DNA of 64,000 nt, from contig JAEINS010000010.1 in assembly GCA_016342755.1 (NCBI GenBank), positions 1-64,000 of the forward strand. Reading direction: 5' to 3'. How positions within the stretch are numbered: position 1 is the first letter of the stretch; each line of letters opens with the position of its first letter. This DNA comes from Melioribacteraceae bacterium (GTDB lineage: Bacteria > Bacteroidota > Ignavibacteria > Ignavibacteriales > Melioribacteraceae). The notes beneath the pieces were generated by a model. It did not search any database. It was given only the letters and a program-made list of their open reading frames with translations, and was not told the origin of the DNA. Below, in pieces: positions 19,943-51,282 of this stretch. Made by a program: the position numbers and the translations under genes.

Positions 19943-19996
19943 ATGAATCAAAAAAATGATCCGCACAAAAATCAAAATGAGCATCAGATAAAATGA
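19943..19996 (+). CDS. Possible 17-codon leader ORF overlapping motA start
   Basis: ATG at 19943 begins a 17-residue peptide (MNQKNDPHKNQNEHQIK) rich in Asn, Gln, His and Lys. Its TGA at 19994-19996 overlaps the motA ATG in an ATGA arrangement, which often couples translation. motA has only a weak Shine-Dalgarno of its own, so ribosomes finishing this ORF could reinitiate there. It may equally be a chance ORF. There is no sequence similarity to judge by. Confidence 0.3.
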   Translation: MNQKNDPHKNQNEHQIK

Positions 19997-20784: not shown

Positions 20785-20790
20785 CAAATC

Positions 20791-22569
20791 ATGGATACTT
20801 CAATGATGTCAAATAACGAGATACAGCAGCTTATTCACAAAAAAGCTGAAGAATTAATTTCTGAAAGATTAGAAAAAGAATTAAGCAGTGAACGATCTGC
20901 TTTAATGTCTCAGCAAACTGATGTTGCAAAAAAACAAGAAAGATTAATTGCACAGCAAAAAGAATTATTAAAAGAAAGAGCAAATATTGATAAAGATCTA
21001 AAACAAGTTGAAAAACATACGCTTCAAATTGAAAAAAAGGTAAAAGAAGAAGTTGCCAGAAAAGTACAGGAAATTGAAGATACTAAAAACAGTCTTGTAA
21101 AAAAAGAGGCGGAATTAGAAAAACAGATGCTTCTTCTAGATAAAAAAGTTAAAGAAAAAGTTGAAAAACAAAAGAAGGAATTAGCTGAAAAAATTAAAAC
21201 TGTTGAAATGGAAAAACTTTTAATTGCCAACAAGATTAAAGAAGGCATTGCCGCAAAAAATGAAGAACTAAAAGTAAAAGAAGCTGAACTTGATAAAAGA
21301 GTTAAAGAAATTGCCTCTCAATCAAAAGAAGCACTCGAAAACAAGAAGAAAAATCTTCTTAGCGAAAAAAATGATCTGGCTAAAAAAGAAAAAGAGGCCG
21401 ATCAGAAAATAGAACAAATTCAAATTAAAGTTGAAAAAGATATAGCTATACAAACAACAGATTTGGCGCAGAAAAAAGAGCAGTTATTAAAGCAGGAAAA
21501 AATTCTAAAAGAGCAGACTTTAAATCTTAATAGGCAAGTTGAAGCGGCGGCGGCAAAAAAAGCAAAAGAGGTAATGTTCCGCGAAAGAGAAATTCTTAAA
21601 GCTGAAATCTTTAAAAAAGAAAAAGAGCTTAAGCAAAAATTAAATCTTAAAGATCAGGAAATACCCAAGATTGTAAAAAAAATTAAAGATGAGGTTAATA
21701 GAAAAAAAGCCGAATATGATAAGAAACAAGCCTCGCTGATAATACAGCAAAATGAATTAGCCAGACAGCAAAGTGTTTTTTCTACTAAGCAGCAAGAACT
21801 GCTTAAGAAAGAAAAAGAATTAAAAAAAGCCGCGGGCATATATATTTCAACAAACGAATATGTTGAACAGCCGATTAAGATAAAAAAATCGGAAGAGCCT
21901 TCTGAGGATCAGGACTGGTTAACTACTTATTCAGATGTTATTACACTATTATTAACAATGTTCGTTTTAATGTTCTCATTAGCAAAAGTTGATCAGAATA
22001 AATTTGAAGAAATAAAAAGATCGATAGATATGCAGTTATTAAAAAAAGCTTCTATCGGTACGTTAAACGAAGGTGCCGGAGAATCAATTTTGGGCGAAGT
22101 AAAAGCACGGTTCAAAAATATTTTTGATGAACACCAAATGGGTGAATCGATTGAAATGAATCTTGGGTCAAAAGGATTAAAACTGGAACTTCCCAGTAAA
22201 TCCCTTTACTCGCTTGGATCTGCCGATATAAAACCGGAAATGCTTCCCGTACTTGAAGGAATTGCCAACGCGATTAAAGAAACCGGGTTTAGTAATTTTT
22301 TAATTTCGGTTGAAGGACATACTGATAATATTCCTATTAACACTGCCGTCTATCCCTCCAACTGGGAACTATCGGCAGGAAGAGCAGCAAACATAGTTAA
22401 ATTTCTTATTTCTAAAGACATTTCACCAGCCAGATTAAAAGCTACCGGTTATGCAGATTCTAGACCAAAGGTTCCTAACTTAGATGAAGAAGGTAACTCT
22501 ATTCCGCTAAACCAGGCAAAAAACAGACGGGTTATAATTTTTATTGAAGATCTTAAAGAACGGTCTTAA
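20791..22569 (+). CDS. motB: MotB-type stator subunit with very long N-terminal coiled coil
   Basis: A 592-residue protein. Residues about 10-350 are Lys/Glu-rich uninterrupted coiled coil. A KVKEEV-like word recurs (KVKEEV, KVKEKV, KIKEGI, RVKEIA, KVEKDI, QVEAAA) at spacings of 36, 29, 22, 43 and 36 residues, each a multiple of seven plus one. The MotB core follows: DWLTTYSDVITLLLTMFVLMFSLAKV, with Asp382 as the expected ion-carrying residue, a plug/linker (410-470) and an OmpA-type peptidoglycan-binding domain (about 480-590; EGHTDNIP, SNWELSAGRA, NRRV). Usual MotB proteins have only some 20-30 residues before the membrane helix and about 250-350 in all. The topology of MotB puts the coil in the cytoplasm. 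The gene is coupled to motA. Start: ATG 20791, with later Mets at 5-6 possible. Confidence 0.85.
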   Translation: MDTSMMSNNEIQQLIHKKAEELISERLEKELSSERSALMSQQTDVAKKQERLIAQQKELLKERANIDKDLKQVEKHTLQIEKKVKEEVARKVQEIEDTKNSLVKKEAELEKQMLLLDKKVKEKVEKQKKELAEKIKTVEMEKLLIANKIKEGIAAKNEELKVKEAELDKRVKEIASQSKEALENKKKNLLSEKNDLAKKEKEADQKIEQIQIKVEKDIAIQTTDLAQKKEQLLKQEKILKEQTLNLNRQVEAAAAKKAKEVMFREREILKAEIFKKEKELKQKLNLKDQEIPKIVKKIKDEVNRKKAEYDKKQASLIIQQNELARQQSVFSTKQQELLKKEKELKKAAGIYISTNEYVEQPIKIKKSEEPSEDQDWLTTYSDVITLLLTMFVLMFSLAKVDQNKFEEIKRSIDMQLLKKASIGTLNEGAGESILGEVKARFKNIFDEHQMGESIEMNLGSKGLKLELPSKSLYSLGSADIKPEMLPVLEGIANAIKETGFSNFLISVEGHTDNIPINTAVYPSNWELSAGRAANIVKFLISKDISPARLKATGYADSRPKVPNLDEEGNSIPLNQAKNRRVIIFIEDLKERS

Positions 22570-28577: not shown

Positions 28578-29246
28578 CTATTTTTCTTCGCTATCCAAAT
28601 CAATCATTTTCATATCATTTACATAATCGGTAAGAGTTGGTTTTTTTATAGAGCTCAGTTTGTCTAAAACTGAAATAATTTCTTTGTTCGCGCCTTCGAT
28701 AAATCCAATGCGTTTAGCAATTCCTTCTTTAGAGACTTCTTCTTTTCCTAGCTCTCTTTTTATAGCTGTTGTACAGAGGTTTATAAGGGTTAACGGCTGC
28801 TTTATCTCATGATTAGCTGTTACAATAGTTGCGGCATATGTTTTTGCGGCTTCCAGATCAATTAACATTTTATTTGTTTCGCTAAATCTTAATGCCGAAT
28901 TTATTCTAGCGAGTAATTCAATTTTGTTAAACGGCTTTTTAATATAATCGTAAGCTCCGGCTTGCAGACCCTCTTTTATATCTTCTGCATCGGTTAAAGC
29001 AGTAACTAAAATAATTGGGATTAATTTTGTATCCTCACCTTCAACCAAAACTTTACAAACATCAAAGCCTGACATTCCAGGCATCATAACATCTAATAAA
29101 ATTAGATCCGGCTGATTGTTTTTTGCTTTCTCTATTGCTGTTGGTCCTTCATAAGCAGTAATAACTTCGAAACCAAAGTTCTCCAATCTATCTTGCAAAA
29201 TAAACACATTGTCAGGCTGGTCATCAACAACTAATATTTTTTTCAT
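28578..29246 (-). CDS. Receiver fused to a histidine-kinase dimerisation helix, no ATPase domain
   Basis: A 222-residue protein. Residues 1-120 are a complete receiver (VVDDQPDN, phosphoacceptor in LILLDVMMPGMSG, Lys in KKPFNK). Residues about 135-200 resemble a kinase dimerisation/phosphotransfer hairpin with an H-box: His146 in TANHEIKQPLTLI. The gene stops at 222 residues, and no ATP-binding domain follows. It could accept phosphate from the large hybrid kinase and pass it on, or bind a kinase as a heterodimer. Its ATG overlaps the stop of the upstream hybrid kinase (ATGA), so the two are translationally coupled. It is the last gene of the pilus cluster. Confidence 0.85.
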   Translation of the reverse strand: MKKILVVDDQPDNVFILQDRLENFGFEVITAYEGPTAIEKAKNNQPDLILLDVMMPGMSGFDVCKVLVEGEDTKLIPIILVTALTDAEDIKEGLQAGAYDYIKKPFNKIELLARINSALRFSETNKMLIDLEAAKTYAATIVTANHEIKQPLTLINLCTTAIKRELGKEEVSKEGIAKRIGFIEGANKEIISVLDKLSSIKKPTLTDYVNDMKMIDLDSEEK

Positions 29247-32200
29247 AATTTATCCAAAGTTTCTGAGACTGTATTTATTAAAATACCTGAATTTAATGGT
29301 TTCGTAACAATTCCATTAAATCCATTTTTATTTATAATTTCTTTATTCTCAAGCATTGCGTGTGCTGTTAGTGCTATAACTGATAACTCTTTAAATTTAG
29401 GTAAAAGTCTAATACGCTTAATTGTTTCAAACCCGTCCATCACCGGCATCATTATATCTAATAAAATTAAATCAGGTGTGTAGTGTGTTAACTGATTCAA
29501 ACACTCCAACCCGTTATTAGCAAACTTTGTTGTATATCCTTCACCTTTTATTATTTCGCCAACAGTAAAAAGCGTATCCTCATCGTCATCAACAATCATA
29601 ATTTTATAATCTTTTTTAGACTTAACACTTACACTTTGTTCAACTATAGGCTCTTCGTTAAATAAATTCGCCTTTATTTCCTGATTGTAATCTAACTTTA
29701 ATCTGTTTTTTATAACTCTTAAAATATCATGCGAAACCCAGTTAGAGCCTGCTACAATCGAACTAATAGCAGCTTCTATGTTTTTTATCTGATCATCACT
29801 TTCAATATTGGTGTTAACTATTATAGGAATATTTTTTGTCTCCGCAATATTTTTAATATTGTGCAAACCTGCAACAGCCTCCTTTTCTCCCAAAACAAGA
29901 TCACTTAAAATTAAATCGGGCTTAATAGACTTAACTAAATCCAGATCAACCTCATCATAAACATTAAGTGTAATTGAATTATCGTGAAGTAAAATATCTT
30001 CGCGTAATGTTTGAATTTCTTTTGTGTACCTTGAGAACAAAAGTACCGAGGTTATTTTTTTTCCTAAAAATCTTTCAGCTTTATTTTTATTGAACAAGAA
30101 TTCTTCTTTGGCAAAAAGATTCTTCGAATAGTCAAATATATCTAATGCATATGATGCCCGGGTTCCTAAATACGTATATATAATTACCGAATTGTTATAT
30201 TTTTTATCGTTTCTCAAATTCAGTCCAAACTTCATGGAAGAAACAAAATCCTCCGCTAAATCAATTATAACAACACTATATTCATCAAGGTTGTAAGAAA
30301 CACCGCTAACATTGCCTGAACTCATATTGTTAATTTCATATTTAGGCAGATATTCCTGAATCATGGAACCAAGTTCAGTATTATTATAAACCAATATTAA
30401 ATTACTTTTATAACTTCTCTTTAATCCGTGCATGGTGCTTTTTTTCTTTTCAATAATCGCGTTAGTAAAAGTGCAATAAAAAGTTGTGCCCTGTTTGTTG
30501 CTTTCAAACGAAATCGATCCATTTAGCAGATCGCAATATTTACGGCATATAGCTAATCCTAATCCGGCTCCCCCATATTTTTTTGCGTTGCCGGCATCAG
30601 CCTGTTCAAACTCTTCAAAAATATTTTCGTTAAACTCTTCCGGAACACCTATACCGGAATCCTCCACTTTTATTATCAAATCGTTTTTAACACTATCAAC
30701 ATTAAGTTTAACAAACCCTTCTGATGTAAATTTAATAGCGTTGCTTAATAAATTGATCGCGATCTGTTCAAGTTTTTCCTGGTCAGATTCAACTATAAAT
30801 TCATAATTTTCAAATCCGCTGATCTCAAAAGACAATTTTTTTTGATCGGCAAGAGGTTTTATAACATTCTCTACATCAACAATTAAAGCCGCTAAATTAA
30901 ATTTCTGAATATTTAAAACTGATTTTTCAGATTCCAGTTTTGAGAACTCTAATATATTATTGATCAGTGATAGAAGGCGTTTCCCGTTTCTAAGTACTAT
31001 AGCAAGTTTCTCTTTAACATTTTCCTTAATATCAGTTTCTTTAAGTGATAATTCAGTTAAACCCAGAATTGAGTTCAATGGTGTTTTTAATTCATGAGAC
31101 ATGTTGGCAAGAAACTGAGATTTAGCTTTTGTAAGATCAACCGCTTTGTTTTTTTCTTTATCTAGTTCATCAGCTTTTATTGTTAATTCATTACTGAGAG
31201 TTTTTAATTTTTCATTTTGATTTTGATAATTATCATTCAGCTCCTGCAATTCATGAACAAGATTTTCTAACTGTCCAAAGGCACTTGCGTTCGTTAGCCC
31301 GATTGCTAACTGCTCTCTAATACTTAATAAATATTCTTTAGTTTCTGCCGGAATATTTTTTTCGGAAAGAAGTTCAATTATAGCGACTGTTTTTTTATTG
31401 TAAATAATTGGAACTAGCAATACACTTTTAATACTTATGTTTAACAGACCCATTTTCATTACCGGAAAATTATCGGTGAATTGTTTTTCAAACAACTTCT
31501 TTTTAACTATAAGCTGATTTAATATTTCTTTGCTGTGATTACCCGCATGAGTTTCAGATTCAATTCCAAACGTAGCTAAAGTTTTTAGTCTTGTATCTTC
31601 AACCAAATATAGAACGCCAAACGATGAGTTTGTTGAGTTTATAATTTTTTCTAAACTAGTTTCGCTAACTTTTTTTAGCCCGGGATTCTGATTTATTAAT
31701 GATATAAAGGATGAATACTCATGCTCCCTGATTTCTCTTTTTTCTAATTCATCCAGCATATCGTTATAAATCGCACCCAGTTTTCCTAATTCGGTTGTTG
31801 AAACAATTGGAACCCGGTGTTTTAAATCGCCTTTACTTGTCTCCTCAACGCCTTCTATAAGTACTCTAATTTGTTCACGCAGCTTAGAAGTAAATAACAA
31901 TACCAGAATAAGGGAAAGTGAAATTCCGGCAAATGTAAATGTGATTACAAAACCAAACATCCTGTTGCTAAAATCTTTTAGTGTTGCGGATTTATTAAAA
32001 ACAACAAATTGAATGTCGTCTCTAATTATTGATAAAGATGATGTAGGAATTAAAGATGCCATTAAATCTTCATTTTGCAGCGCAATACTTTCTATTGCTC
32101 CCTTAAAATTCTGATTTAACCTGGCATGAACGCTCTGTAATTTCCCAAGATGAATTGCGTTAGCATTATTATGTGATTGTGCTATTACGTCATTATTACG

Positions 32201-32692
32201 CAAAACTATAACTTCGGCGTTAATTTTTTCTGAAATCCTATTCAGGTATTCTTCATTTATTACACTTCCATAATACACCGACTGATTATCTGAAAGTATT
32301 TTGTATTGTATTAAATATGACGGGTTTTTATCAATAAACGATTTAATAGTTTTGTCAATTGGGTTTACATTCTGTTGTAAATCCGCCGGTTCTTTAACAA
32401 CCTTTATTATCTTTGTCTTTTCAACAATAAAAATGAAATCGGGAGGGATGCTGTTTATTTCTGATAAGGAATGGAGTGTATTTGTAAAAAGGACTTTGTC
32501 TATTTCATAATCATTTTCAAATAATCTGCTGTGAAATGAAAAGACAAAATCCTTTTTTGAGTTTTGAAGATTAGTAACCTGCTGACTTTTTAATATTTCA
32601 ATAGTAAACGAATAATAAATTATGCCGGATGAGACCGACATTAAAACTACAACAAAAAATATTATTGATAAAAGTCTGGCATTAATCTTCAT
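29243..32692 (-). CDS. Membrane hybrid histidine kinase with GAF and multiple receiver-like domains
   Basis: An 1149-residue kinase. Two membrane helices (about 7-29 and 246-270) enclose a 215-residue periplasmic sensor; a HAMP-like linker, a GAF domain (about 345-475) and a coiled segment follow. The kinase core has His533 in ANMSHELKTPLNSIL, and the ATPase motifs QIAINLLSNAIKFT, DSGIGVP and GAGLGLAICRKY. Two degenerate receiver-like domains (about 770-1000) precede a complete receiver (1030-1149; Asp1079 in LLDIMMPVMDG). It overlaps the preceding receiver gene by 11 bases and the following gene by 4, so it belongs to the pilus operon. The sensed signal is unknown. Confidence 0.92.
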   Translation of the reverse strand: MKINARLLSIIFFVVVLMSVSSGIIYYSFTIEILKSQQVTNLQNSKKDFVFSFHSRLFENDYEIDKVLFTNTLHSLSEINSIPPDFIFIVEKTKIIKVVKEPADLQQNVNPIDKTIKSFIDKNPSYLIQYKILSDNQSVYYGSVINEEYLNRISEKINAEVIVLRNNDVIAQSHNNANAIHLGKLQSVHARLNQNFKGAIESIALQNEDLMASLIPTSSLSIIRDDIQFVVFNKSATLKDFSNRMFGFVITFTFAGISLSLILVLLFTSKLREQIRVLIEGVEETSKGDLKHRVPIVSTTELGKLGAIYNDMLDELEKREIREHEYSSFISLINQNPGLKKVSETSLEKIINSTNSSFGVLYLVEDTRLKTLATFGIESETHAGNHSKEILNQLIVKKKLFEKQFTDNFPVMKMGLLNISIKSVLLVPIIYNKKTVAIIELLSEKNIPAETKEYLLSIREQLAIGLTNASAFGQLENLVHELQELNDNYQNQNEKLKTLSNELTIKADELDKEKNKAVDLTKAKSQFLANMSHELKTPLNSILGLTELSLKETDIKENVKEKLAIVLRNGKRLLSLINNILEFSKLESEKSVLNIQKFNLAALIVDVENVIKPLADQKKLSFEISGFENYEFIVESDQEKLEQIAINLLSNAIKFTSEGFVKLNVDSVKNDLIIKVEDSGIGVPEEFNENIFEEFEQADAGNAKKYGGAGLGLAICRKYCDLLNGSISFESNKQGTTFYCTFTNAIIEKKKSTMHGLKRSYKSNLILVYNNTELGSMIQEYLPKYEINNMSSGNVSGVSYNLDEYSVVIIDLAEDFVSSMKFGLNLRNDKKYNNSVIIYTYLGTRASYALDIFDYSKNLFAKEEFLFNKNKAERFLGKKITSVLLFSRYTKEIQTLREDILLHDNSITLNVYDEVDLDLVKSIKPDLILSDLVLGEKEAVAGLHNIKNIAETKNIPIIVNTNIESDDQIKNIEAAISSIVAGSNWVSHDILRVIKNRLKLDYNQEIKANLFNEEPIVEQSVSVKSKKDYKIMIVDDDEDTLFTVGEIIKGEGYTTKFANNGLECLNQLTHYTPDLILLDIMMPVMDGFETIKRIRLLPKFKELSVIALTAHAMLENKEIINKNGFNGIVTKPLNSGILINTVSETLDKL

Positions 32693-33065
32693 ATTTCTCA
32701 GTATTTAGAACTTTGCTAATTGTAATAATCAACTCATCAAGATCATAAGGTTTACTTATGAAATCTGTTGCGCCTAAACGAGCCGAATCAATAGCGCTTT
32801 TTACATCTGCGTAAGCAGTAAGAACAATAACTTTAATTTCAATATTTTTTTCTTTCATGGTACGCAAAACATAAAACCCATCTTTTTCGGGCATCTTTAA
32901 GTCAAGCAAAATTAGATCAACTTTTTTTCCACCCTCTATGTACTCAATGGCTGCTTCGGCACCAGTAACAAAATTTGAGTTATAACCAACCTCATTCAAT
33001 TCTTCCGATAAAACTGTACATAGATTAATATCATCATCTACTATAAGAATTGATTCCATTTCCAT
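32682..33065 (-). CDS. Single-domain response regulator (CheY-like receiver)
   Basis: A 127-residue protein that is only a receiver: acidic pocket in LIVDDDINLC, phosphoacceptor Asp in LILLDLKMPEKDG, Thr/Ala switch in VLTAYADV and Lys in SKPYDL. Such proteins act by docking on a partner, as CheY does on the flagellar switch and PilG/PilH on twitching systems. It lies directly after the secretin gene (no gap beyond the stop) and overlaps the hybrid kinase by 11 bases. It may couple that kinase to the pilus ATPases, which is inference from position. Confidence 0.92.
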   Translation of the reverse strand: MEMESILIVDDDINLCTVLSEELNEVGYNSNFVTGAEAAIEYIEGGKKVDLILLDLKMPEKDGFYVLRTMKEKNIEIKVIVLTAYADVKSAIDSARLGATDFISKPYDLDELIITISKVLNTEKYED

Positions 33066-34325
33066 TTAATCCTCATTATCCTGGTTTTTTATACTATACT
33101 TCTTAATATTTTCTTCATTAAATTCATGCTGCTTCTGGATTAATAATTCTTCTTTTTTATTAGCAATTCTTTCCTTTATCGAAGGAATAATTTCTGCTTT
33201 TATTAATATAACAACTTCTCTCTTAAGAATGTTAACAGATTCATATCCAAATAAATATTTTAATCCGAATACCCACCAGGGTAAATCTTTTAATAGTGGA
33301 ACTCCGCGTGTTTCGCTTGATTCTTCAGTTAAGTATAATCCGCCAATAACAGTTTCTTCACCATTAAGCATTAATACTTCACTCTGTGCTTTTGTTTTAT
33401 TAATCTGTGTACTAATGGCGCCGGGTTGTCCTGAACTTCTTTCAACATCCAGATTTAAGAATACATAATCAATTTCATCTTCATTAAAAACCCGTGGTGT
33501 AACTTTAACAATTGTACCAGTTGAAATAAATTTATCGGTAATATTGCCCGAAAAATCCTGTTGTTTTATTGATATATCTGTACCAATCTGAATAAATCCC
33601 TCTGATCCGTCTTTAACTGTAATAGACGGGTGAGCAATTATTTCACCAAAGTTATTATCTTCAAAAAACTTAATTGTAGCATTAGCTTCACCAGAAAATT
33701 CTCCCATTGTAAACTCGGATTGTGTATTAAGTTTAAACTCTGGTGATCTTTCCATCTGTTGGCTACCCGAAGCGGAAGATGATTGTTGCTCTTCGCTTAA
33801 CTCCCCAAATGATAATAACTCACTTCCTATTTTTATTCCGTCGGTTGATAAAGACCAGTCCCAGTTAAATCCTCTTTCCCTAAGTTCCGAAACATTTAAT
33901 TCAAAAAACACGGTTGAAATTCTCACTTCTCTTTCATTTATAGAAGCATATTCACCAGGTTTAAGATCTTTTCCGCCACCTGGCTCCAATTCCTTTTTAT
34001 TCTGGACTATAATAGAAGTAGGTGAATGTGAATATTCTAAATTATTGTATTTCACAATTGTAGTAAGTGCTCTCATATAAGGCATTTTATCAATTGCAAT
34101 TCCAATAGGATCAGTAAAATTAGCCGTTGAAAGAATTTTCTTGCCAGTAAGGTTTTCACTAACCTGACTTAATATCATTACCGCTTTATCGAAAGCAATT
34201 GTTTCTGAGAGGGTTACTAATTCTTCAGGATTTGAATAGCCCTTCAGCTGTTTCTCAATATGCTTCTGTCCATATACTGGCAGTGCAGTAAGAGCCATTA
34301 ATAGTATTAAAACATATTTTTTCAT
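33066..34325 (-). CDS. Type IV pilus/type II secretion-type secretin (PilQ-like)
   Basis: About 419 residues, short against the usual 600-750 of PilQ. ATG at 34323-34325 starts a signal peptide (MKKYVLILLMALTALPVYG, then Gln). A single N-domain-like part covers about 35-125. The secretin barrel has VRISTVFFELN near its start and the hallmark EVLMLNGEETVIGGLYL...RGVPLLKDLPW stretch. About 60 charged residues follow the barrel and may bind a partner. AMIN domains and most N-domains are missing, so this secretin is minimal. It forms the outer-membrane gate for the pilus. The upstream gene ends 22 bases before. Confidence 0.88.
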   Translation of the reverse strand: MKKYVLILLMALTALPVYGQKHIEKQLKGYSNPEELVTLSETIAFDKAVMILSQVSENLTGKKILSTANFTDPIGIAIDKMPYMRALTTIVKYNNLEYSHSPTSIIVQNKKELEPGGGKDLKPGEYASINEREVRISTVFFELNVSELRERGFNWDWSLSTDGIKIGSELLSFGELSEEQQSSSASGSQQMERSPEFKLNTQSEFTMGEFSGEANATIKFFEDNNFGEIIAHPSITVKDGSEGFIQIGTDISIKQQDFSGNITDKFISTGTIVKVTPRVFNEDEIDYVFLNLDVERSSGQPGAISTQINKTKAQSEVLMLNGEETVIGGLYLTEESSETRGVPLLKDLPWWVFGLKYLFGYESVNILKREVVILIKAEIIPSIKERIANKKEELLIQKQHEFNEENIKKYSIKNQDNED

Positions 34326-34347
34326 TTTATTTTCTCTCTCAGTTTTT

Positions 34348-35241
34348 TTAATTCTGTTTTTTCTCTTCTTGCTGCTTGTCCAATAACAAAGCTGTTTTTT
34401 CAATTATACCGCCTTTATTAAGGATAAAATGCACTTCACTTTTTGTGAAATCAATTTGTGTAAGATAACCTAAATAAACTTCATCACCTTCCCACAATAA
34501 AAAAGTATTTCCGCTAGCATCCGAAATAAAGGCTCCGTCAGGCACAATTGCTAATAACTGCGCAGTTTGTACATCTAATAAATTATCCGTATTAGGAGGA
34601 ATTTCATTTCTGATAAGCGGATAAAAGATATCATATAATCTGTTTGGAATTAATTTATTCTCTACAAATTCACTCGATGCAAAACTGTCGTTATCCGCTG
34701 AATATACAGTTGCTACCAAATCGAACTGAACTAAATAATGCGGTACTTTATCATTATCTACAGTAATAAAATTCTGCATACTTACTGATTCTATTTTCTT
34801 TAGTTCTTTACTCTGTTCAACAGCGTAAATAAGTTCATAAATATCATTAAAAGTTGCTGTCCCGCTTAATCTGTATCTGTAATATTCAAAATGTTCTGTA
34901 ACCTGCTCATCCAGATATTCTATATTAACATACGAAATTTCATCAAACCTTCTGCTGACTTTATTAACAAAATTATAAAAATCAGATTGTTTAAGATTCA
35001 TTGGAATATTAAATTTTCTAAGAGCCAGAACTGAATCTAATATAGTTGCTCTCTTTTTTAAGGAATCCAATTGACTCTGTAACGCAACAGGATCATATTC
35101 ATTTTGCTTTAAAACCTTTAATTGTTCTTCCCTGTCAGCTATATCGCCACTCTGAAAAGCAAAAATATAAACCGTTCCTACTGTAACTATAATAATTAAT
35201 ATAATTACAAGAAATAATGTACTTCGTAATTTAAGGTCCAT
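34348..35241 (-). CDS. PilO-like protein with PilP-like C-terminal domain
   Basis: A 297-residue inner-membrane protein. One helix (about 9-28) is followed by a short coiled coil (REEQLKVLKQ to LKKRATILDSVL) and a ferredoxin-like periplasmic domain (about 85-185) as in PilO/GspM. The last 85 residues (QLLAIVPDGAFISDASGNTFLLWEGDEVYLG, split across two strands) look like the small beta-domain of PilP/GspC, which docks on the secretin. No separate pilP gene is present. It overlaps the PilM-PilN-like gene by 11 bases. The PilO part is well supported, the PilP part by layout and fold-like pattern only. Confidence 0.75.
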   Translation of the reverse strand: MDLKLRSTLFLVIILIIIVTVGTVYIFAFQSGDIADREEQLKVLKQNEYDPVALQSQLDSLKKRATILDSVLALRKFNIPMNLKQSDFYNFVNKVSRRFDEISYVNIEYLDEQVTEHFEYYRYRLSGTATFNDIYELIYAVEQSKELKKIESVSMQNFITVDNDKVPHYLVQFDLVATVYSADNDSFASSEFVENKLIPNRLYDIFYPLIRNEIPPNTDNLLDVQTAQLLAIVPDGAFISDASGNTFLLWEGDEVYLGYLTQIDFTKSEVHFILNKGGIIEKTALLLDKQQEEKKQN

Positions 35242-36790
35242 CTACCATCTCCGCTTTGTTGGCTAATGGAAATCTAAGAGAATAAGCAAATGTATTTTCT
35301 TCTCTCAAAGGCTCATACAAAATGTTTTTTAATAAAGATGAATTATTATAATCCGCAAATTGTGTTAATACCGGTCTCGACATTGAGTAACCTTCAATTT
35401 CAATCATCTCATCAGTTAATGCTAAAGATTTTATCCAGAAGTTTCTTCTTCTTTCAATAAAATTGGATGTTTTATAAACTAAATCTGTCCAAATCTCAGC
35501 TCCTTGTGAAACAGAATCAAGTATTGTCTGGGTTTTATCGAAGCCTGAAATTTTGCTGTCGTAATGAGAAATCTGATCAAGTTTAGCCTGATTTTCAACT
35601 TGAAGTCTTTCGAGTCTGTTTACTTCATTATTAAGATTTCTAAGTTCAAACGAGTTAGATTGTATTATATAAGTGAAAAAGAATGTAGCCAAAAATAATA
35701 ATGGAAGCATCGCAATTGTATGCCAGCCAAATTGAAAGAATTTTTGATTTTCTTTTATATGGCGGGGAAGAATATTAACACCCTTGTACTCATCGTCCTG
35801 TTCGGCAAAATATTCTGTAGCAACTGAAATTGGAATAGAATAGGAAGATAAATTTCGGGTTATTTCATCTTGCAGGCCGGATGTTTCAATATTATCAAAT
35901 TTTAATTCTGTAACATTGGCTTCCGGGAATGTTCCGTAAAAAGATAGTATTAGATTTTCTGAAGTATCTTCACCGCAAAGTATAACATTATCCAGTCTTG
36001 GAATTCCGCCATTCTCCATTTCTAAAAGAATCTTAGAAAAATATACATCATATGTATGAAGATTTTCAGTTCCAATGTCAAGAGAGGTACCAATGTGTTT
36101 AAAGTTTTGTCCTTCTAAGAAAATCAGCTTGCTATATTCACGTCCGGTATAGATTACAAGTGAATAATCTTCGGGAAAAAATTTGTTCGTTTTTGAGACA
36201 TAATATCCAAGTGAGAGCTCTGCGCTTTTAATTGTGGATATTTTATAGAAGCGTTCATTCTGAACAGCGGCTAAAGCATTAACTGTGTTAACAGAGCTAT
36301 TTTCACCTTCTAAAAATACTCCCAAAGTGCTATCATCAGTAAAATCGATGCAATCAATTGAATCAGGCGCAACAAGAATACCTTTGTGTTCTTTAATATC
36401 TGATATAATTGCAGAAATAAGTTTCTTTTTATCCTTTAATTTCTCACCGTTATAAATGTGATAATTAACAGCCGGTTCTGAAACAATTGGAATAAAAGAG
36501 GCTTTTTTAGGACTAAAAATAGAAATATGTGAGGCAACTTCATTAATATGAGCAGCACTTAAGCCAGCTTCGCCAGATTGACTTTCAACATTCTCGTCAA
36601 AAGAAAACTCATCGGAAACATCATCAAAAGCCAGGTCATCCAAAGTATCGAGGGAAGAATCCATTCCCTGAGCCTCATCACCATTAGATACTGATCCTGC
36701 AGAAAGTAGTTTTATTCCTTCCTTATCTTTGGTAAAGACTGCAACCTTAGTATCACTACCTTCAGTATAAAGACAAATTATTGGTTTCAT
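35231..36790 (-). CDS. PilM-PilN-type fusion (GspL-like)
   Basis: A 519-residue protein. Residues 1-345 are a divergent actin-like ATPase domain as in PilM or cytoplasmic GspL (LVIYTGREYSKLIFL, NVILCGEDTSENLIL), with an acidic insertion near residue 40-75. A membrane helix at about 357-378 is followed by a coiled coil (LRNLNNEVNRLERLQVEN) and a small periplasmic domain as in PilN. In most type IV pilus systems these are two proteins; a single chain is the arrangement of GspL. It joins the cytoplasmic ATPases to the periplasmic alignment complex. Three bases separate it from the PilT-like gene upstream. Confidence 0.8.
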   Translation of the reverse strand: MKPIICLYTEGSDTKVAVFTKDKEGIKLLSAGSVSNGDEAQGMDSSLDTLDDLAFDDVSDEFSFDENVESQSGEAGLSAAHINEVASHISIFSPKKASFIPIVSEPAVNYHIYNGEKLKDKKKLISAIISDIKEHKGILVAPDSIDCIDFTDDSTLGVFLEGENSSVNTVNALAAVQNERFYKISTIKSAELSLGYYVSKTNKFFPEDYSLVIYTGREYSKLIFLEGQNFKHIGTSLDIGTENLHTYDVYFSKILLEMENGGIPRLDNVILCGEDTSENLILSFYGTFPEANVTELKFDNIETSGLQDEITRNLSSYSIPISVATEYFAEQDDEYKGVNILPRHIKENQKFFQFGWHTIAMLPLLFLATFFFTYIIQSNSFELRNLNNEVNRLERLQVENQAKLDQISHYDSKISGFDKTQTILDSVSQGAEIWTDLVYKTSNFIERRRNFWIKSLALTDEMIEIEGYSMSRPVLTQFADYNNSSLLKNILYEPLREENTFAYSLRFPLANKAEMVDGP

Positions 36791-36793
36791 GTT

Positions 36794-38023
36794 CTATAAC
36801 GCTTTAAGTAGTTGTATCATCCTTGTTTTATTATTTGCATAGGCAACCGCATTATCCCGGTCAATTTTCCTTTGCTTGTATAACCTAAGCAAATCTTGTT
36901 CCATTGTATTCATGCCTTGTGGTGAACCCTGATTAATCATCATATAAATTTCACTTGTATTGTTGTTTTTGATAGCTGCCTTAACACTTGGTGTAGCTAT
37001 TAAAACCTCCTTAGCTAAAATACGTTTGCCATCAACAGTAGGTACAAGTTTCTGAGAAATCACGGTAACTAAAACATCCGCAAGCCTGTTTCTTACACGG
37101 TCTTGTTCAATCGGATTAACCTCAGCAATAATTCTATCAATAGATTCGACCGCCGAAGAGGTATGAAGTGTAGAAAATACCTTATGACCGGTATCTGTTA
37201 CCTCTAAAGCCGCCATAATTGTATCAGGATCTCTCATCTCACCAATCATTATTATATCGGGATCCTGTCTTAATGCCTGAGTTACACCATCTTTAAATGA
37301 AAGAACATCACGTCCAACTTCTCTATGTCTAATAATCGCGACATTAGATTTATGTACAAATTCAATTGGCGAAGCAATAATTACTATATGCGCCGGATCC
37401 ATTGTATTATGATAACCAATAATAGAATCGAGCGTTGTTGATTTACCCGAACCAGTAATACCTGTAATTAGAGATAAACCAAACTTTATATAATTATGAC
37501 TCATCATCCGTAATGCGTTAGGATGAAATTCCAAATTTTCTATTGGATAAATATTAGCTGCAATAGAACGCATATTAAGAGCCAGCGCATCTAAATCAAA
37601 ATAGGAATCGGCTCTAAACCTTACATTCTTCTCTTCTTTATCATAAAAGAATCCGTAACTAAAATCTAAATTTCTAGTTTTAAGAAGATGTTTACACTGA
37701 TATCTATTTAATAAACTAACAATTAAAACAGAAGCTTCGTCCAGAGTTAATTGAGGTAAATCTTCTACTTTTTCTTTTTTACCGAAGACTCTGAACCATA
37801 TATAGCCGCCCGTACCGTATCCGCCAACTTCAATATCAGAAGCCTGTCTTTCTAACATTAAGCTTAGGATATAATTAAACAACTTATGTATAAATAGTTT
37901 TTGTTCTACAGAAATACGTTCATCAAAATGTTCAATGATATAAGTAACTCTTTCTGGTCCAATTACTGTTTGCGGAATTGTCCGAACAAAGCTAGTTAAT
38001 ATATTTTTTGCTTCATTAAGCAT
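36794..38023 (-). CDS. PilT-type retraction ATPase
   Basis: A 409-residue PilT/PilU-family ATPase. Motifs in order: Walker A GITGSGKSTT, an Asp-box region with VIIASPIEFV, Walker B DPDIIMIGEMRD, and the His box GHKVFSTLHTSSAVESIDRI. The N-terminal PAS-like domain covers about 1-170. PilT hexamers depolymerise pili during twitching and DNA uptake. Its presence argues for a retractile type IV pilus rather than a type II secretion system. It starts 66 bases after pilB. ATG is at 38021-38023. Confidence 0.9.
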   Translation of the reverse strand: MLNEAKNILTSFVRTIPQTVIGPERVTYIIEHFDERISVEQKLFIHKLFNYILSLMLERQASDIEVGGYGTGGYIWFRVFGKKEKVEDLPQLTLDEASVLIVSLLNRYQCKHLLKTRNLDFSYGFFYDKEEKNVRFRADSYFDLDALALNMRSIAANIYPIENLEFHPNALRMMSHNYIKFGLSLITGITGSGKSTTLDSIIGYHNTMDPAHIVIIASPIEFVHKSNVAIIRHREVGRDVLSFKDGVTQALRQDPDIIMIGEMRDPDTIMAALEVTDTGHKVFSTLHTSSAVESIDRIIAEVNPIEQDRVRNRLADVLVTVISQKLVPTVDGKRILAKEVLIATPSVKAAIKNNNTSEIYMMINQGSPQGMNTMEQDLLRLYKQRKIDRDNAVAYANNKTRMIQLLKAL

Positions 38024-38089: not shown

Positions 38090-39883
38090 CTACTCATCCA
38101 TTGTACCGGATATTACTTCCTGAATCGATGTCAAACCAAGCTTTACCTTTTCAAGTCCCGATTCTCTAAGGTTATGTGAACCATCCGCCCTTGCCTGAGC
38201 CCTGATTTTCTCTTCATCAACTTCTATACCCGACCGGACAATTATCTCTCTAAGCTCTTTTGTAAAATATAAAGCTTCATGTATTGCCAAACGTCCTTTA
38301 TATCCCGTATCGTTGCATTCTCTACAGCCAACTGCTTCGTATATTTCTTGTTTTTTCCATTCATCAACATCAAGACCTAAACTTTTCATATATACCGGGT
38401 CATGCTCAACAACCCGTTTTTTACAGGAAGGACATAGTCTTCTAATAAGTCTCTGTGCAACTATTATATTAATAGCATATGCAATTAAGAAAGGTTCAAT
38501 ACCCATTTTATATAAACGCGCAACCGCACTGGGAGCATCGTTAGTATGCAATGTAGAAAATGTTAAGTGACCTGTATTAGCCAGCTTAATAGCGGTTTCG
38601 GCAGTTTCCTTATCACGCATCTCACCTACAAGTACAATGTCAGGATCGTGTCTTAATATTGCGCGGATTGCCTGTTCAAAATTCATTTTGTGACCAATCT
38701 TTAACTGTCTAGCACCTTCAATAACATATTCAACAGGATCTTCCACTGTTAACACATTTACTTTTGGAGTAATTACCTGATATAACGCGGCAACAAGTGT
38801 TGTACTTTTACCGCTACCGGTTGGACCTGTTAAAATAACCATACCCTGCGGCTGATTTATTGATTTTTGAAATGCCTGATTTGCATAACCAACCAGCCCA
38901 AGTTTACTTAAATCTTTTATTACCTTTCTATCATCAAGAATACGAATAACAATACTTTCAAATTTATTTTTTAATTCGGTTCCAACCATTGGAAGTACAG
39001 AAACCCTGAATCTGATTATATGTTTATCAATTTCTCTCTGAATAAAACCATCCTGGGCGCGCTCTCTTTCAAATCTATCGAGACCTTTTGCACGGTCTTT
39101 TACAACCGCCATCATAGCTTCTGGCAATACATTATCCTGCGCGTGCCACAAAACCAATTTACCATCCTGCCTAAAATGAATTTCTGTAATATTTCCACTC
39201 TTTGGAATTACATGAATATCACTGACTCCTCTTCGGGTTCCTTCAACAAGAGCGGCTTCTACTAAATTTATTAATGCGCTTTTGTTAATTTCGGCATCAA
39301 GATCCTCTTCGCTAATACCGCCTTCATCGGCAACTTCCATATTAAATTCTTCAACTGAATCTTCCATCATTTGAAGAAATTCATTTTTCTGAGGATTTAT
39401 CTTATCTATAAGCTTATCGAAATCCGCATGCTTTAAAAAGTTAATTTCAAATTTTTTTGCGTTTAGTGAGTAAGCTATTTTTGTTAGTTCTCTATCGGTA
39501 GGATCAACAGCCGCTAAAATCAATTTGTCTTTTATTCTTTCGTCATACTTAAAAGGTATAACTTTTCTTTCTATAAGATGTTTTTTTACCTGCTCTCCCT
39601 GACTTTCCATTAAATTTAAAATTTCAACAGTTCTTTGGTCTGTCAGTTCATCTATATTAATTACCAATTCCTTAAACGCGTATAATAACGCGACTTCCCT
39701 AAAAATAGTATCATGATCGAACTTAAATTCCTGGACAAGTATCTGCGCAAGATTTCTCTTAAGTTTAAACTGATCATTTTTCTTTTTTTCTAAGGCTTCT
39801 TGTAATATCTTTATATCGATTATGCCTTTTTTTAAAAGCAGGTAACCGATTTTATCCATCATTTCCAGCTGGCTTTCTAACAT
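38090..39883 (-). CDS. pilB: PilB-type pilus assembly ATPase
   Basis: A 597-residue GspE/PilB ATPase. An N-terminal MshEN/GspE-N domain (about 10-160) precedes the motor domain, which shows Walker A GPTGSGKSTT, VEDPVEYVI, Walker B DPDIVLVGEMRD, the His box GHLTFSTLHTNDAPSA and a four-Cys zinc site (CPSC and CREC). It powers pilin insertion at the inner membrane. It lies between pilC and pilT on the same strand, with 11 bases to pilC. Length and motif order are normal. Confidence 0.94.
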   Translation of the reverse strand: MLESQLEMMDKIGYLLLKKGIIDIKILQEALEKKKNDQFKLKRNLAQILVQEFKFDHDTIFREVALLYAFKELVINIDELTDQRTVEILNLMESQGEQVKKHLIERKVIPFKYDERIKDKLILAAVDPTDRELTKIAYSLNAKKFEINFLKHADFDKLIDKINPQKNEFLQMMEDSVEEFNMEVADEGGISEEDLDAEINKSALINLVEAALVEGTRRGVSDIHVIPKSGNITEIHFRQDGKLVLWHAQDNVLPEAMMAVVKDRAKGLDRFERERAQDGFIQREIDKHIIRFRVSVLPMVGTELKNKFESIVIRILDDRKVIKDLSKLGLVGYANQAFQKSINQPQGMVILTGPTGSGKSTTLVAALYQVITPKVNVLTVEDPVEYVIEGARQLKIGHKMNFEQAIRAILRHDPDIVLVGEMRDKETAETAIKLANTGHLTFSTLHTNDAPSAVARLYKMGIEPFLIAYAINIIVAQRLIRRLCPSCKKRVVEHDPVYMKSLGLDVDEWKKQEIYEAVGCRECNDTGYKGRLAIHEALYFTKELREIIVRSGIEVDEEKIRAQARADGSHNLRESGLEKVKLGLTSIQEVISGTMDE

Positions 39884-39894
39884 TTTTTTACCCT

Positions 39895-41235
39895 CTACAT
39901 TCCTGGTTTAGGAGGACTTATTGTTGCTGTTTCTGCCGAAACAATTGTTAAGGCCGTCATAACAACCATAATAACCATAGCAATTACAACCTGAACCATT
40001 TCAATTATATTTTTCATTCTATACACAGTTTCACTTTCATAATAATTTGCTAATTGAAGAGCTGTGTTTTTAATTGTACCTGTCTCTTCTCCGGAGTGGA
40101 ATCTTGAAATTGCCGTCTCTGTAAAAACTCCTGCTGCTTCAAAAGAATCTGTCAGACCTACACCTTTTTTTATCATTAAAGGAATAGCTACATCTTTAAT
40201 CTGTTTTTCAAAGTAAGAATTACCACAGGCTTCAGCCGCAATTCTGATCGGTTCTATACTTTCAGCAGAGCCGGTGTATAAGGTATAAAATACACGGCAA
40301 AATACTTCTATTGTTGTTTTATGAACAAGACTGCCGATAATAGGAACTTTCATTAAATATTTATCAAAAATTAATTTGCCCTTTTCTGTTCTGATCCATT
40401 GAAAAAATACAATAGGCGGTACAAATATAATTAACGCTATAATAATCGGGTTATTTAAAAGAAGATCACTAAATTCTAAAGTCGCGGCTGTCATTGGCGG
40501 TAATTCAATATCAAATTTCTCGAAAAGTTTTGCTGTTTCCGGGAAAATATAACCTACATAAAATAAAACCGCTAAAAATAAAACAAAGAGTGTAATAAAC
40601 GGAGTAATAAGAGCGCTTCTCATATCTTTACTAAACTGCATTTGTCTTTCCAGAAATTTAGCGGTTGCTTTATAAATTTCAGCCATATTACCGCTTTTTG
40701 CAGCAAGTCCTAACATATAAGCCGTAAATCTTCCAAAAACCGATTCGTATTTTAGAAATGTAACTTCACTATCCGCGCCTGATTTAAGATCGTTATTTAT
40801 TTGTTTTAAAGTTTCGCGGAGTGTTTTATTTTCTAAGTCTGCTGTAAGAAGAGTCATTATCTCAGAATAGGGCAGTTTTTGATCAAGTAGTTCGGCACTT
40901 ATTTTTACAAAAGAAACTATTTCCTGCTGCGGCGGTTTGGGGTTATATTCGAATAAAACTTTATTTACGGAAATTACTTCATAACCCATTTTTGTAAGTG
41001 CCCGTACAACTTCCTCTTTATTATATGCTTTCTGCTCACCTTTTGTGGGCTTTTCTGTACCTTTTCTTACTTTATATAAAAAAGTAGACTTACTCTCTAT
41101 CTTTTCAATAGTTAAACTATGATTAGCGGCTAAATCCTTAACCTTTTTTTTGCCCTCGCGTAATGTAGCCGAACTAAGGTTACCACTAATAACTTTACCG
41201 TTTGGTTTTTTTGCAAAAAATCTAATTTCGACCAT
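39895..41235 (-). CDS. pilC: PilC/GspF-type inner-membrane platform protein
   Basis: A 446-residue platform protein. The N-terminus (1-105) is a longer basic region than usual. Two GspF domains follow, with TM helices near 215-235 (FITLFVLFLAVLFYVGYIF), 270-285 and close to the C-terminus (VVIAMVIMVVMTALTIV). The family motif FHSGEETGTIKN is present. It binds PilB/PilT and guides pilins into the fibre. It is the first gene after the pilin pair, separated by a terminator and about 200 bases, so it may have its own promoter or receive read-through. Confidence 0.92.
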   Translation of the reverse strand: MVEIRFFAKKPNGKVISGNLSSATLREGKKKVKDLAANHSLTIEKIESKSTFLYKVRKGTEKPTKGEQKAYNKEEVVRALTKMGYEVISVNKVLFEYNPKPPQQEIVSFVKISAELLDQKLPYSEIMTLLTADLENKTLRETLKQINNDLKSGADSEVTFLKYESVFGRFTAYMLGLAAKSGNMAEIYKATAKFLERQMQFSKDMRSALITPFITLFVLFLAVLFYVGYIFPETAKLFEKFDIELPPMTAATLEFSDLLLNNPIIIALIIFVPPIVFFQWIRTEKGKLIFDKYLMKVPIIGSLVHKTTIEVFCRVFYTLYTGSAESIEPIRIAAEACGNSYFEKQIKDVAIPLMIKKGVGLTDSFEAAGVFTETAISRFHSGEETGTIKNTALQLANYYESETVYRMKNIIEMVQVVIAMVIMVVMTALTIVSAETATISPPKPGM

Positions 41236-41435: not shown

Positions 41436-41472
41436 AAATTAAAAAAACCAACAACCATTTTAAGGTTGTCGG
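41436..41472 (-). terminator. Intrinsic terminator after the pilin pair
   Basis: On the minus strand CCGACAACC pairs with GGTTGTTGG around a 7-base loop, with seven T following. It lies about 27 bases after the stop of the second pilin gene and would make pilin expression much higher than that of the machinery genes behind it. Confidence 0.78.
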
Positions 41473-41498
41473 CTCTGTACTAAAACTTATGCTGTTTT

Positions 41499-41918
41499 TT
41501 AGTCATTTACAGTTGTGCTTGTTACTGTAATATTATCTGGAGTTACAGTAACAACTACGGCAATATTAACACCGGCAGTTGCGTTTTTAGATGTACCAGT
41601 TGCAGTTAATGTTAAAGTCTGTGGAGCAGCTACTGGCACAACAGCAGCAGACATATTTGCAGTTTGTAACAATGATGGAGGAATAGCAAATGCAGTACTA
41701 TTTGCAGCAGAACCATCAAATGTGTTTCCACCACCACCCATTGCAGCAGGTTTTCTATAATGTTGCTGTGCCATAGCACCAATTGTTTGTAAATCAGAAA
41801 TTAATGCGTCATTGTTGGCAGATAAACTACTTGCTGTAAATACATTCATACCTACAACTACCGCGATTCCTACTATGATTACACCAAGAACGATTAATAA
41901 TAATTGCTGTTGTCCCAT
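41499..41918 (-). CDS. Pilin-like protein with minimal leader (paralogue 2)
   Basis: A 139-residue protein starting MGQQQLLLIVLG, then a hydrophobic helix to about residue 23 and a small Ala/Thr/Val-rich globular part. It is clearly paralogous to the next gene: both share the first 12 residues, a long N-terminal helix, and an AMGGGGN motif near residue 60. It lacks the classic prepilin leader and Glu5; if prepilin peptidase cuts after Gly2, position 5 of the mature chain is Leu. Placement directly before pilC-pilB-pilT and the size argue for the major or minor pilin of this system. It is 60 bases from paralogue 1 and followed by a terminator. Start: ATG 41916-41918. Confidence 0.8.
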   Translation of the reverse strand: MGQQQLLLIVLGVIIVGIAVVVGMNVFTASSLSANNDALISDLQTIGAMAQQHYRKPAAMGGGGNTFDGSAANSTAFAIPPSLLQTANMSAAVVPVAAPQTLTLTATGTSKNATAGVNIAVVVTVTPDNITVTSTTVND

Positions 41919-41978
41919 TTTTTACTCCGTTATTTTTGTTATTAAAATGTTAAATATTGTTAAGTGTTTATTTTTATT

Positions 41979-42359
41979 TTAGTGAATAACTTCCGTTGTA
42001 AAACTTTCAGATGTAACAGTCATTTTAACTTCAATAAGATCATTGTCCTGAACTACTTCATTTCCTATGCCAGTTATTTCAACACTCTGGGCAGTAACAG
42101 CCGCTGTAAAAGTTCCGTCAGCATTTGTCTTTAAACTTGTCGGAATATCCCAACCTGTAAACTCGTTTCCGCCGCCACCCATAGCTTTCGGTATCTTGTG
42201 ATATTTCTGAGCTTCACTTGCAAGATGTATAAGATCATTAATTACATTGTTTCTTTTATTCTCTATCGCGTTAGCCTTAAAGACGCTAATTCCAACTGTT
42301 ATAGCTACACCGACAATTATAATGCCAAGTACGATCAATAAAAGTTGCTGCTGTCCCAA
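41979..42359 (-). CDS. Pilin-like protein with minimal leader (paralogue 1)
   Basis: A 126-residue protein, MGQQQLLLIVLG start, helix to about residue 23, then a charged helix extension (NKRNNVINDLIHLASEAQKY) and the IPKAMGGGGNEFTGWDIP segment shared with paralogue 2. The tail is beta-rich. As in its paralogue there is no prepilin leader beyond Met-Gly and no Glu5. The start is TTG at 42357-42359 behind AAAGGTGATAA, a strong ribosome site; that the identical MGQQQ sequence follows confirms this start. A sigma54 promoter match lies about 57 bases upstream. It is first in the pilus cluster. Confidence 0.8.
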   Translation of the reverse strand: MGQQQLLLIVLGIIIVGVAITVGISVFKANAIENKRNNVINDLIHLASEAQKYHKIPKAMGGGGNEFTGWDIPTSLKTNADGTFTAAVTAQSVEITGIGNEVVQDNDLIEVKMTVTSESFTTEVIH

Positions 42360-50112: not shown

Positions 50113-51282
50113 TCACCTCATATGTTTCATTCCGTTTTTTACTTCATTGGATGCTCTCTCAAAAACTTCTTCAAACGTACCCATTCCGTCAATTTTAACA
50201 ACTCCATGCAGCTGTTCATATTTTTCAATTACCTGCATTGTCTTAACTTCATGCTCCTGAAGTCTCTTAACAATTTTTGAAGTACTAGAATCGTAAGGCA
50301 TGCGTTTATCAGTTTTACTTCTTGCATCAAGCCTGTTTATAAGTTCGAGTGTAGGAACTTCAAACTCAATTAACTGTGAAATTTTGGTTCCATGTTTTTT
50401 CAAAAGACCGTCCAATATATATGATTGCACAAGTGTTCTCGGAAAACCTTTGAAGATAAATCCTTTTACTCTTTTTGAGTTTTCAAGTTTTTTCTCGATC
50501 AATTGAACAACAATTTCATCTGGTACTAATTGCCCATTTTCGTAAAGTTCTAATATTTTCTTTCCTACTTCTGTTTTTTGTTCAATCTCTTCTTCAAGCA
50601 TTCTGCCTGTTGCAACATATTCTAAGCCATATTTTTCAGCTAGAGCTTTACCCTGAGAGCCGCGTCCACATCCCGGATAACCGAAAAGAACTACATTATA
50701 GAGCGATTTACTTAGTTCGTTCTGTACTATTTGAATAATTTTATTAGTTACATTATCTATTGAATCAAGACCTCCAATTTCAAAATAAATACCTCTGTCT
50801 TTGTAAAACTCTATTACAGGTCGTGTTTTTTCGTGATATTCAACAAGACGCTTTCTTATAACGGTTTCATTATCGTCTGAACGACCTGATGTTTTTCCTC
50901 TATTTAAAAGTCGGGATACAGATTCTTCTTCATCAACATTAATACTAATTAGGCAATTTAAAGAAGTGTTCAATTTTATCATCAAACCTTCCAAAATATA
51001 TGCCTGAACATATGTTCTTGGAAAACCATCAAATAAAAATCCGTTTGCATCGGGATTATCAGTAATCGTTTTTTCTATTATCTGAACAATTATTTCATCC
51101 GAAACCAATCCGCCGGAAGCAATTATATTTTGTGCTTCCAATCCTAGTTTGGTTTTTCCGGCAATTTCTTTTCTTAACAAATCACCAGTTGAAATGTAAA
51201 ATAGGTTGAATTTTTTCAGAAGAAATTCTGACTGAGTTCCTTTCCCGGCTCCCGGAGGTCCGAACAATGCAATATTTAACAT
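50113..51282 (-). CDS. Tandem adenylate kinase with degenerate second P-loop
   Basis: A 389-residue protein made of two adenylate-kinase domains. Domain 1 (1-190) is complete: P-loop GPPGAGKGTQ with Lys14, ISTGDLLR, FDGFPRT and the short LID (RGKTSGRSDD). Domain 2 (about 193-389) repeats the fold but has GYPGCGRGSQ with Arg207 in place of the P-loop Lys, ATGRMLEEE, FKGFPRT without the Asp, and an altered LID (DARSKTDKR). Domain 1 should interconvert AMP, ATP and ADP; domain 2 is probably inactive in catalysis and may be regulatory or structural. No other adenylate kinase is in the window, so whether this is the housekeeping enzyme is open. ATG is at 51280-51282. Confidence 0.85.
   Translation of the reverse strand: MLNIALFGPPGAGKGTQSEFLLKKFNLFYISTGDLLRKEIAGKTKLGLEAQNIIASGGLVSDEIIVQIIEKTITDNPDANGFLFDGFPRTYVQAYILEGLMIKLNTSLNCLISINVDEEESVSRLLNRGKTSGRSDDNETVIRKRLVEYHEKTRPVIEFYKDRGIYFEIGGLDSIDNVTNKIIQIVQNELSKSLYNVVLFGYPGCGRGSQGKALAEKYGLEYVATGRMLEEEIEQKTEVGKKILELYENGQLVPDEIVVQLIEKKLENSKRVKGFIFKGFPRTLVQSYILDGLLKKHGTKISQLIEFEVPTLELINRLDARSKTDKRMPYDSSTSKIVKRLQEHEVKTMQVIEKYEQLHGVVKIDGMGTFEEVFERASNEVKNGMKHMR

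Follow-up and report, generated by a model that had tools for sequence, protein, structure and literature searches.

Can fibres of the type IV pilus family be assembled from subunits that carry no leader to be removed? The question is raised by two adjacent genes in a 64,000-nucleotide stretch of a Melioribacteraceae genome (the whole stretch is referred to here as the window). The class III signal peptide of ordinary prepilins is described, in the sections of PMC4471445 available to us, as a hydrophilic leader of 6-26 residues ending in Gly and followed by a hydrophobic stretch of about 21 residues; the same sections state that Glu at mature position 5 is usual in bacteria and often absent in archaea. 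In the accessible parts of two reviews a pilin is defined by its leader motif and the prepilin peptidase is counted as a core component (PMC10191384, PMC4471445), one of them placing the peptidase among five components that are ancestral in the type 4 filament machine (PMC10191384). The system encoded in the window resembles a type IV pilus, yet type IV pilins are defined by a leader, Glu5 and a peptidase, and it satisfies none of these criteria. We conclude that the two genes probably encode, already in mature form, the subunits of a type IV pilus-like fibre; both the fibre and the mature N-terminus are inferred, and there are no direct data on either. The features of the locus are collected in Table 1.

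Table 1. The pilin pair and the neighbouring assembly genes in the window
Feature	Position	Strand	Basis or remark
Leaderless pilin A, presumed major subunit	41499..41918	minus	139 aa, ATG start
Leaderless pilin B, second of the pair	41979..42359	minus	126 aa, TTG start
Terminator-like hairpin (possible attenuator) separating pilin A from PilC	41444..41476	minus	simple hairpin scan
PilC/GspF-like inner-membrane platform protein	39895..41235	minus	PF00482 E=1.1e-24; in 52/58 relatives
PilB-like assembly ATPase	38090..39883	minus	PF00437 E=3.4e-103; TIGR02538 415.7 bits, below cut-off 675.65
PilT-like retraction ATPase	36794..38023	minus	TIGR01420 320.3 bits, cut-off 319.1; PilT 2ewv E=7.8e-64
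PilM/PilN-like protein	35231..36790	minus	family profile to PilN 3jc8 E=1.9e-8; PF05137 in 3/16 members
PilO/PilP-like protein (weak)	34348..35241	minus	family profile to PilO 3jc8 E=0.038; cluster position
Secretin (PilQ-like)	33066..34403	minus	PF00263 E=5.9e-28; best NCBIfam TIGR02515 PilQ 91.9 bits, below cut-off

The preliminary description of this DNA had stated that both proteins start with MGQQQLLL, continue as a hydrophobic helix and share an AMGGGGN motif, and that they have almost no leader and no Glu5; all of this was borne out. Pilin A and pilin B both begin MGQQQLLLIVLG, the opening residues being Met-Gly-Gln-Gln-Gln-Leu-Leu-Leu, the long hydrophobic helix follows immediately, and AMGGGGN occupies residues 59-65 in each. 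On the 5' side of the start codon the frame stays open for one codon in pilin A and four in pilin B before in-frame stops are reached. Hidden upstream start codons were rejected because of these stops, which lie immediately 5' of the annotated starts. The homologues are built in the same way: for 60 genes from 30 loci of related genomes, this locus included, the upstream open frame was 3.5 codons long in the median and never longer than 28 codons, and in only three genes did it include an in-frame start codon. Since the upstream open frame is too short, a leader of ordinary length (6-26 residues) is excluded for nearly all 60 genes. The hydrophilic leader ending in Gly that characterizes a class III signal peptide is thus missing, and Met-Gly alone precedes the Gln triad and the helix.

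Conservation of this N-terminus was then considered at the level of both DNA and protein. Across 33 aligned pilin A proteins there is no variation at residues 1-14 and 16-19, and Gly2 is invariant in the pilin A and pilin B alignments alike. Among 174 homologues from 99 loci, 136 start with MGQQQLLL and 30 more differ only by a TTG or GTG start. The first 12 codons of 172 distinct homologous genes comprise 164 different DNA sequences that encode only 26 peptides, and 103 of these genes encode MGQQQLLLIVLG. The collapse of so many DNA sequences into so few peptides indicates selection at the protein level, and the N-terminal identity is therefore not due to chance. Residue 5 is Gln in each of 173 homologues (one of the 174 fell outside the length limits), and Asp, Glu, Lys and Arg are all absent from residues 2-24; Glu5 is consequently missing in any register, there being no acidic residue at positions 1-24. 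The hydrophobic stretch expected of a pilin is present, residues 6-24 being uncharged in 173/173 homologues and a helix being predicted for residues 2-55 in both proteins of the pair.

A pattern scan of the window's genome for other leaderless proteins gave five matches, of which three are real, namely the pair and a third paralogue on contig C19. The other two were rejected as leaderless proteins, since they are short open frames only. The third paralogue (genome G000, contig C19, 70055-70441; 10055-10441 in locus L149) begins MGSQQLVIYTIV..., has 128 aa and a GGG motif, and adjoins a gene that looks like a fusion of sigma-factor and FecR-like parts; the paralogue is possibly a minor pilin. 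The pilin also occurs on contigs labelled Deltaproteobacteria and Patescibacteria (L085, L103), which may be mis-binned.

The claim that the pair heads a PilC-PilB-PilT cluster was likewise upheld, and the cluster extends further than had been mentioned, with PilM/N-like and PilO/P-like proteins and a secretin. The combination of an assembly ATPase and an inner-membrane platform protein that is expected of such a machine is present, as is a PilT retraction ATPase, whose TIGR01420 score is just above the cut-off; the PilB-like ATPase matches both the PilB and GspE families of NCBIfam. The PilMNOP/PilQ set is more unevenly documented. Its secretin and PilN-like protein are supported, PilO is weak (E=0.038), and PilM and PilP are assigned from position alone; within the PilM/PilN-like protein, the PilN part is supported by sequence comparison and the PilM part is an inference. 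Neither of the two proteins encoded between PilT and the secretin has a Pfam family of its own.

Other genes of the window were noticed as well. Directly after the secretin gene, on its strand, come genes for a 127-aa response regulator and a hybrid histidine kinase of 1149 aa (window 29243-33065), a position that suggests signalling tied to the pilus. Elsewhere in the window are a gene for a 389-aa protein with apparently two adenylate kinase domains in tandem (50113-51282) and a MotA-like gene followed by a MotB-like gene (19993-22569), and in the 592-aa product of the latter the OmpA-like end is preceded by a very long coiled coil.

The preliminary description had proposed examining linkage of such pilins to pilC, and the linkage proved consistent. 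In 62 of the 79 named loci PilC follows the pilin on its own strand, mostly after a gap of 80-110 bases; eight loci are truncated too close to the pilin for a decision, and nine have room for PilC yet show none nearby. At one locus (L052, 9579-10393) the pilin pair adjoins an aspartyl-tRNA synthetase gene as it does in the window, while pilC and the rest are absent within 10 kb; the pilus cluster is split there. No PilC relative was found on viral contigs, and none on plasmids at E<=1e-30. The pilin genes are also inherited together with the machine. In a sample of 58 genomes from the same family and order, this one included, pilin A homologues were present in 51, PilC in 52 and the PilT-like ATPase in 49. 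Six genomes (G020, G027, G033, G045, G054 and G057) lack all three alike, a 68% complete genome (G018) has PilC on a 3.6 kb contig and no pilin, and two fragmented genomes (G014 and G029) also lack the PilT-like ATPase. Linkage and co-inheritance of the pilin genes with PilC, PilB, PilT and the secretin are thus observed directly. ComEC was found in 58/58 relatives, those without pilins included, and being non-discriminating it cannot support competence as the function of the pilus.

Between pilin A and PilC lies a terminator-like hairpin. By our own simple scan, 37 of the 52 intergenic regions that separate pilin and PilC in named loci contain one like it, whereas mononucleotide shuffling predicts 0.3. 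Its place behind the pilin gene is consistent with production of the subunit in larger amounts than the assembly machine.

If the pilins have no leader, is there an enzyme to remove one? A search for pilD, suggested in the preliminary description, found none in the window's genome by either of two profiles. Peptidase_A24 (PF01478) had no match in its 4.73 Mb (56 contigs, rated 100% complete); the same search was positive in 12 of 14 control genomes. A clade-specific profile, built from the A24 proteins of the five relatives that have one, gave a single match in this genome (E=0.088), which was partial and contained three stops. The requirement for a prepilin peptidase in the genome of a type IV filament machine is therefore not met. 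Across the 58 relatives, A24 was above cut-off in only five, all of them pilin-bearing, so that 46 of the 51 pilin-bearing relatives are without it. The clade-specific profile recovered the same five genomes, their best matches being at E<=6e-85. A divergent prepilin peptidase missed by Pfam was considered and rejected: the other matches to this profile (E 2e-4 to 0.1) were partial, mostly with stops, and none was above the PF01478 cut-off.

Wider samples gave a similar picture. In 198 genomes of the phylum, a sample that overlaps the 58 relatives, the pilin was found in 73, A24 in 29 and both in eight, leaving 65/73 pilin-bearing genomes without A24. In 50 named pilin-bearing genomes, which we chose for diversity from the 79 named loci, A24 was present in nine and absent from 41. 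It is lacking in Stygiobacter electus, in three MAGs labelled Melioribacter roseus and in the Kryptonia genomes, among others; the nine carriers include one Calditrichaeota genome, one KSB1 genome and three that duplicate relatives already counted (G002, G022 and G030, same coordinates). Five single-contig genomes rated 98-99% complete (G008, G035, G046, G048 and G049) have the pilin and no A24 above cut-off.

The few genomes that do have A24 serve as an internal control. The preliminary description had named a separate canonical pilin gene, shown to form the fibre, as a finding that would refute it; a canonical pilin gene was sought in the window's genome with the N_methyl prepilin profile (PF07963), and there was no match at E<=0.1. 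Among the relatives, N_methyl was above cut-off in five of 58, four of these being A24 carriers. Thirteen regions around A24 genes were inspected, the A24 genes of G186, G189, G206, G266 and G277 and one of the two G070 copies being left aside. Leader-bearing Glu5 pilins lie beside A24 in nine of these regions (L155-L158, L161, L162 and L165-L167). They have a charged or polar leader, a Gly, and then a start such as FSLTELMVAL or FTLIELIMV with Glu5, and in G002, G007, G022 and G030 a second, distant copy of PilC lies beside them. Our pattern revealed no leader-bearing pilin in the other four regions (L159, L163, L164 and L168). Of these, L159 is cut off by a contig edge yet includes an ATPase and a secretin, and a PilB-like ATPase is encoded in L163 and L168. 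In most cases A24 thus accompanies the ordinary prepilins of a second system, and the MGQQQ pilins are found, unchanged, both where the peptidase is present and where it is absent. The second cluster of this clade is like the leaderless system in having its own PilC, ATPase and secretin, and occurs in some of the same genomes, but differs in its leader-bearing FSLTE pilins and its A24 peptidase. By our inference, it is possibly the odd Bacteroidetes 'T2SS' (Cytophaga-type) of Denise et al.

Are the two proteins nevertheless pilins? Pfam, NCBIfam and PHROGs hold no pilin family that matches pilin A or pilin B, and the Pfam matches of single pilin A homologues (ComP_DUS, MacB and others) were dismissed as scattered and near chance. 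The preliminary description had proposed structure prediction of a fibre; single-subunit models of both proteins have type IV pilin folds. The AlphaFold model of pilin A, made from its alignment, has a mean pLDDT of 87.6 and consists of one helix (residues 2-55) and four strands; that of pilin B (pLDDT 90.8) has the same helix-plus-strands plan. For pilin A, Foldseek alone gave no significant match, the best (E=0.88) being a Pseudomonas pilin. On structural re-alignment the top ten PDB entries for pilin A were all type IV pilins (Z 6.1-8.7, the next being 4.7), as were the top 16 for pilin B (Z 6.2-10.0). A lollipop fold is thus found for both, with moderate scores and in predicted models only; the strength of these scores lies in the top of each list being occupied by a single family.

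The position of the mature N-terminus is less secure. In a PDB sequence search of the pilin, the top two matches were N-terminal helices of geopilin (E=0.042 and 0.1); the Geobacter short pilins (PilA-N, geopilin domain 1; 2m7g, 7tgg and 9egp) are the best sequence matches overall, through this helix (E=0.042-0.16). By itself the likeness does not reach significance. Unlike the present proteins, geopilin possesses a leader and Glu5, and it has no beta domain. In register, encoded residue 7 corresponds to mature residue 6 of geopilin, model residue 2 to mature residue 1 of the gonococcal pilus (5vxx), and, in a weak alignment, residue 6 to residue 5 of canonical pilins of the same clade; with 1oqw the register differs, model residue 4 falling on residue 1. 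The profile-profile comparison with canonical pilins was weak (probability 0.8% and 3.5% in two runs), and the hhalign register is too weak to fix mature residue 1. Three comparisons (geopilin, 5vxx and the canonical pilins of the clade) thus place encoded Gly2 at mature residue 1, none of them strong and 1oqw disagreeing, so that this assignment is only weakly supported.

The suggestion that the pair represents a distinct pilin class, with different processing or no need of Glu5, is accordingly supported by the consistent linkage to pilC, by the failure of the profile searches to find pilD or a separate canonical pilin gene in the genome, and by the predicted pilin folds. The reading that the pilins are encoded in mature form nonetheless has evidence against it. 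No fibre has been seen, no N-terminus has been measured, and a peptidase from a different family remains possible; the lack of a significant match by Foldseek alone, the moderate Z values, the weak profile-profile comparison with canonical pilins, the nine loci without nearby PilC and the nine named genomes with A24 also count against it, as does the statement, in the sections of PMC4471445 available, that Glu5 mutants of ordinary pilins form no homopolymers. The pilins might be processed after all, Met-Gly being a two-residue leader cut after Gly2 by an unrecognised peptidase. Gly2 is as invariant as the Gly(-1) of ordinary prepilins, and an enzyme outside Peptidase_A24 would have escaped our searches. 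That invariance is equally expected for Met removal, however, and a leader of two residues compares poorly with the 6-26 of ordinary ones (PMC4471445, available sections); moreover the A24 family is missing and the window's cluster contains no candidate peptidase. We regard such cleavage as quite unlikely. An ordinary prepilin peptidase that was lost from the assemblies or is too divergent, with the pilins as its usual substrates, is harder still to maintain. Some of the genomes are fragmented drafts, and A24 does occur in five of the 58 relatives, but the five single-contig genomes with the pilin have none above cut-off, the clade profile finds the same five carriers and nothing else convincing, and the pilins offer no leader to cut. 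This explanation we consider very improbable.

A different kind of doubt concerns the fibre itself. The proteins could remain anchored in the membrane, where the PilC/PilB motor would drive them as, for example, a short pseudopilus for secretion or a piston for DNA uptake, and no long fibre would ever form. A motor and a secretin are common to type II secretion, and the ATPase matches GspE as well as PilB. A PilT-family retraction ATPase and a PilN-like protein fit a pilus better than a pseudopilus or piston, however, and the hairpin after the pilin gene suggests high expression, which also speaks against a short structure. We therefore hold the anchored alternative to be unlikely, while keeping it in view.

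How would subunits encoded in mature form be assembled? Methionine aminopeptidase is expected to remove Met1 when Gly is at position 2. Since Gly follows Met1 here, this removal is expected, and it would leave a free N-terminal Gly, which we infer to occupy the position that prepilin peptidase exposes in other pilins. Insertion of the helix would be N-in, with no charged leader. PilC and PilB may pull the subunits into a fibre, to which the secretin would offer the exit and which PilT would retract, and the invariant Gln3-Gln4-Gln5 cap could serve for packing at the helix ends where ordinary pilins use the Glu5 salt bridge; all these steps are inferred. With a little more reserve than for the pair itself, we favour the broader proposal of a whole branch of type IV filaments without prepilin maturation, assembled without prepilin peptidase, N-methylation or Glu5, the Gly-Gln-Gln-Gln cap serving as substitute.

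Compared with the type IVa pilus, this system is alike in its motor, platform, retraction ATPase, PilN-like protein, secretin and predicted pilin fold, and unlike it in having no leader peptide, no Glu5 and no PilD in the genome. We found no published account of leaderless pilins in open-licence PubMed Central; subscription papers and preprints were outside the scope of the search. According to the parts of Denise et al. 2019 at hand (PMC6668835), systems were detected by requiring a major pilin, MSH loci without a peptidase may use that of another system, and a peculiar Bacteroidetes 'T2SS' exists; Ignavibacter is not mentioned in those parts. Canonical-type e-pilins were reported in one Ignavibacteriales genome by BLAST and PilFind, as far as the available text of PMC7399161 indicates, which conflicts with the rest of the clade. 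In Melioribacter roseus pilT, pilQ, pilB and pilC were reported, and the authors judged that a complete set was probably not present (PMC3534657). Our analysis, by contrast, identifies a pilin pair and leads to the proposal that pilD is not needed.

A large bacterial group thus appears to build type IV pilus-like fibres without the trimming enzyme. If this is true, neither prepilin peptidase nor Glu5 is intrinsically required for a type IV filament to assemble, and surveys that rely on the leader motif will miss leaderless pilins. Old questions, the purpose of leader cleavage and the need for the Glu5 salt bridge in assembly, become testable, and the relatives that carry leaderless and leader-bearing pilins together constitute a natural experiment. 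For Melioribacter roseus itself, encoding of the pilins in mature form would explain the 'missing pilA and pilD'.
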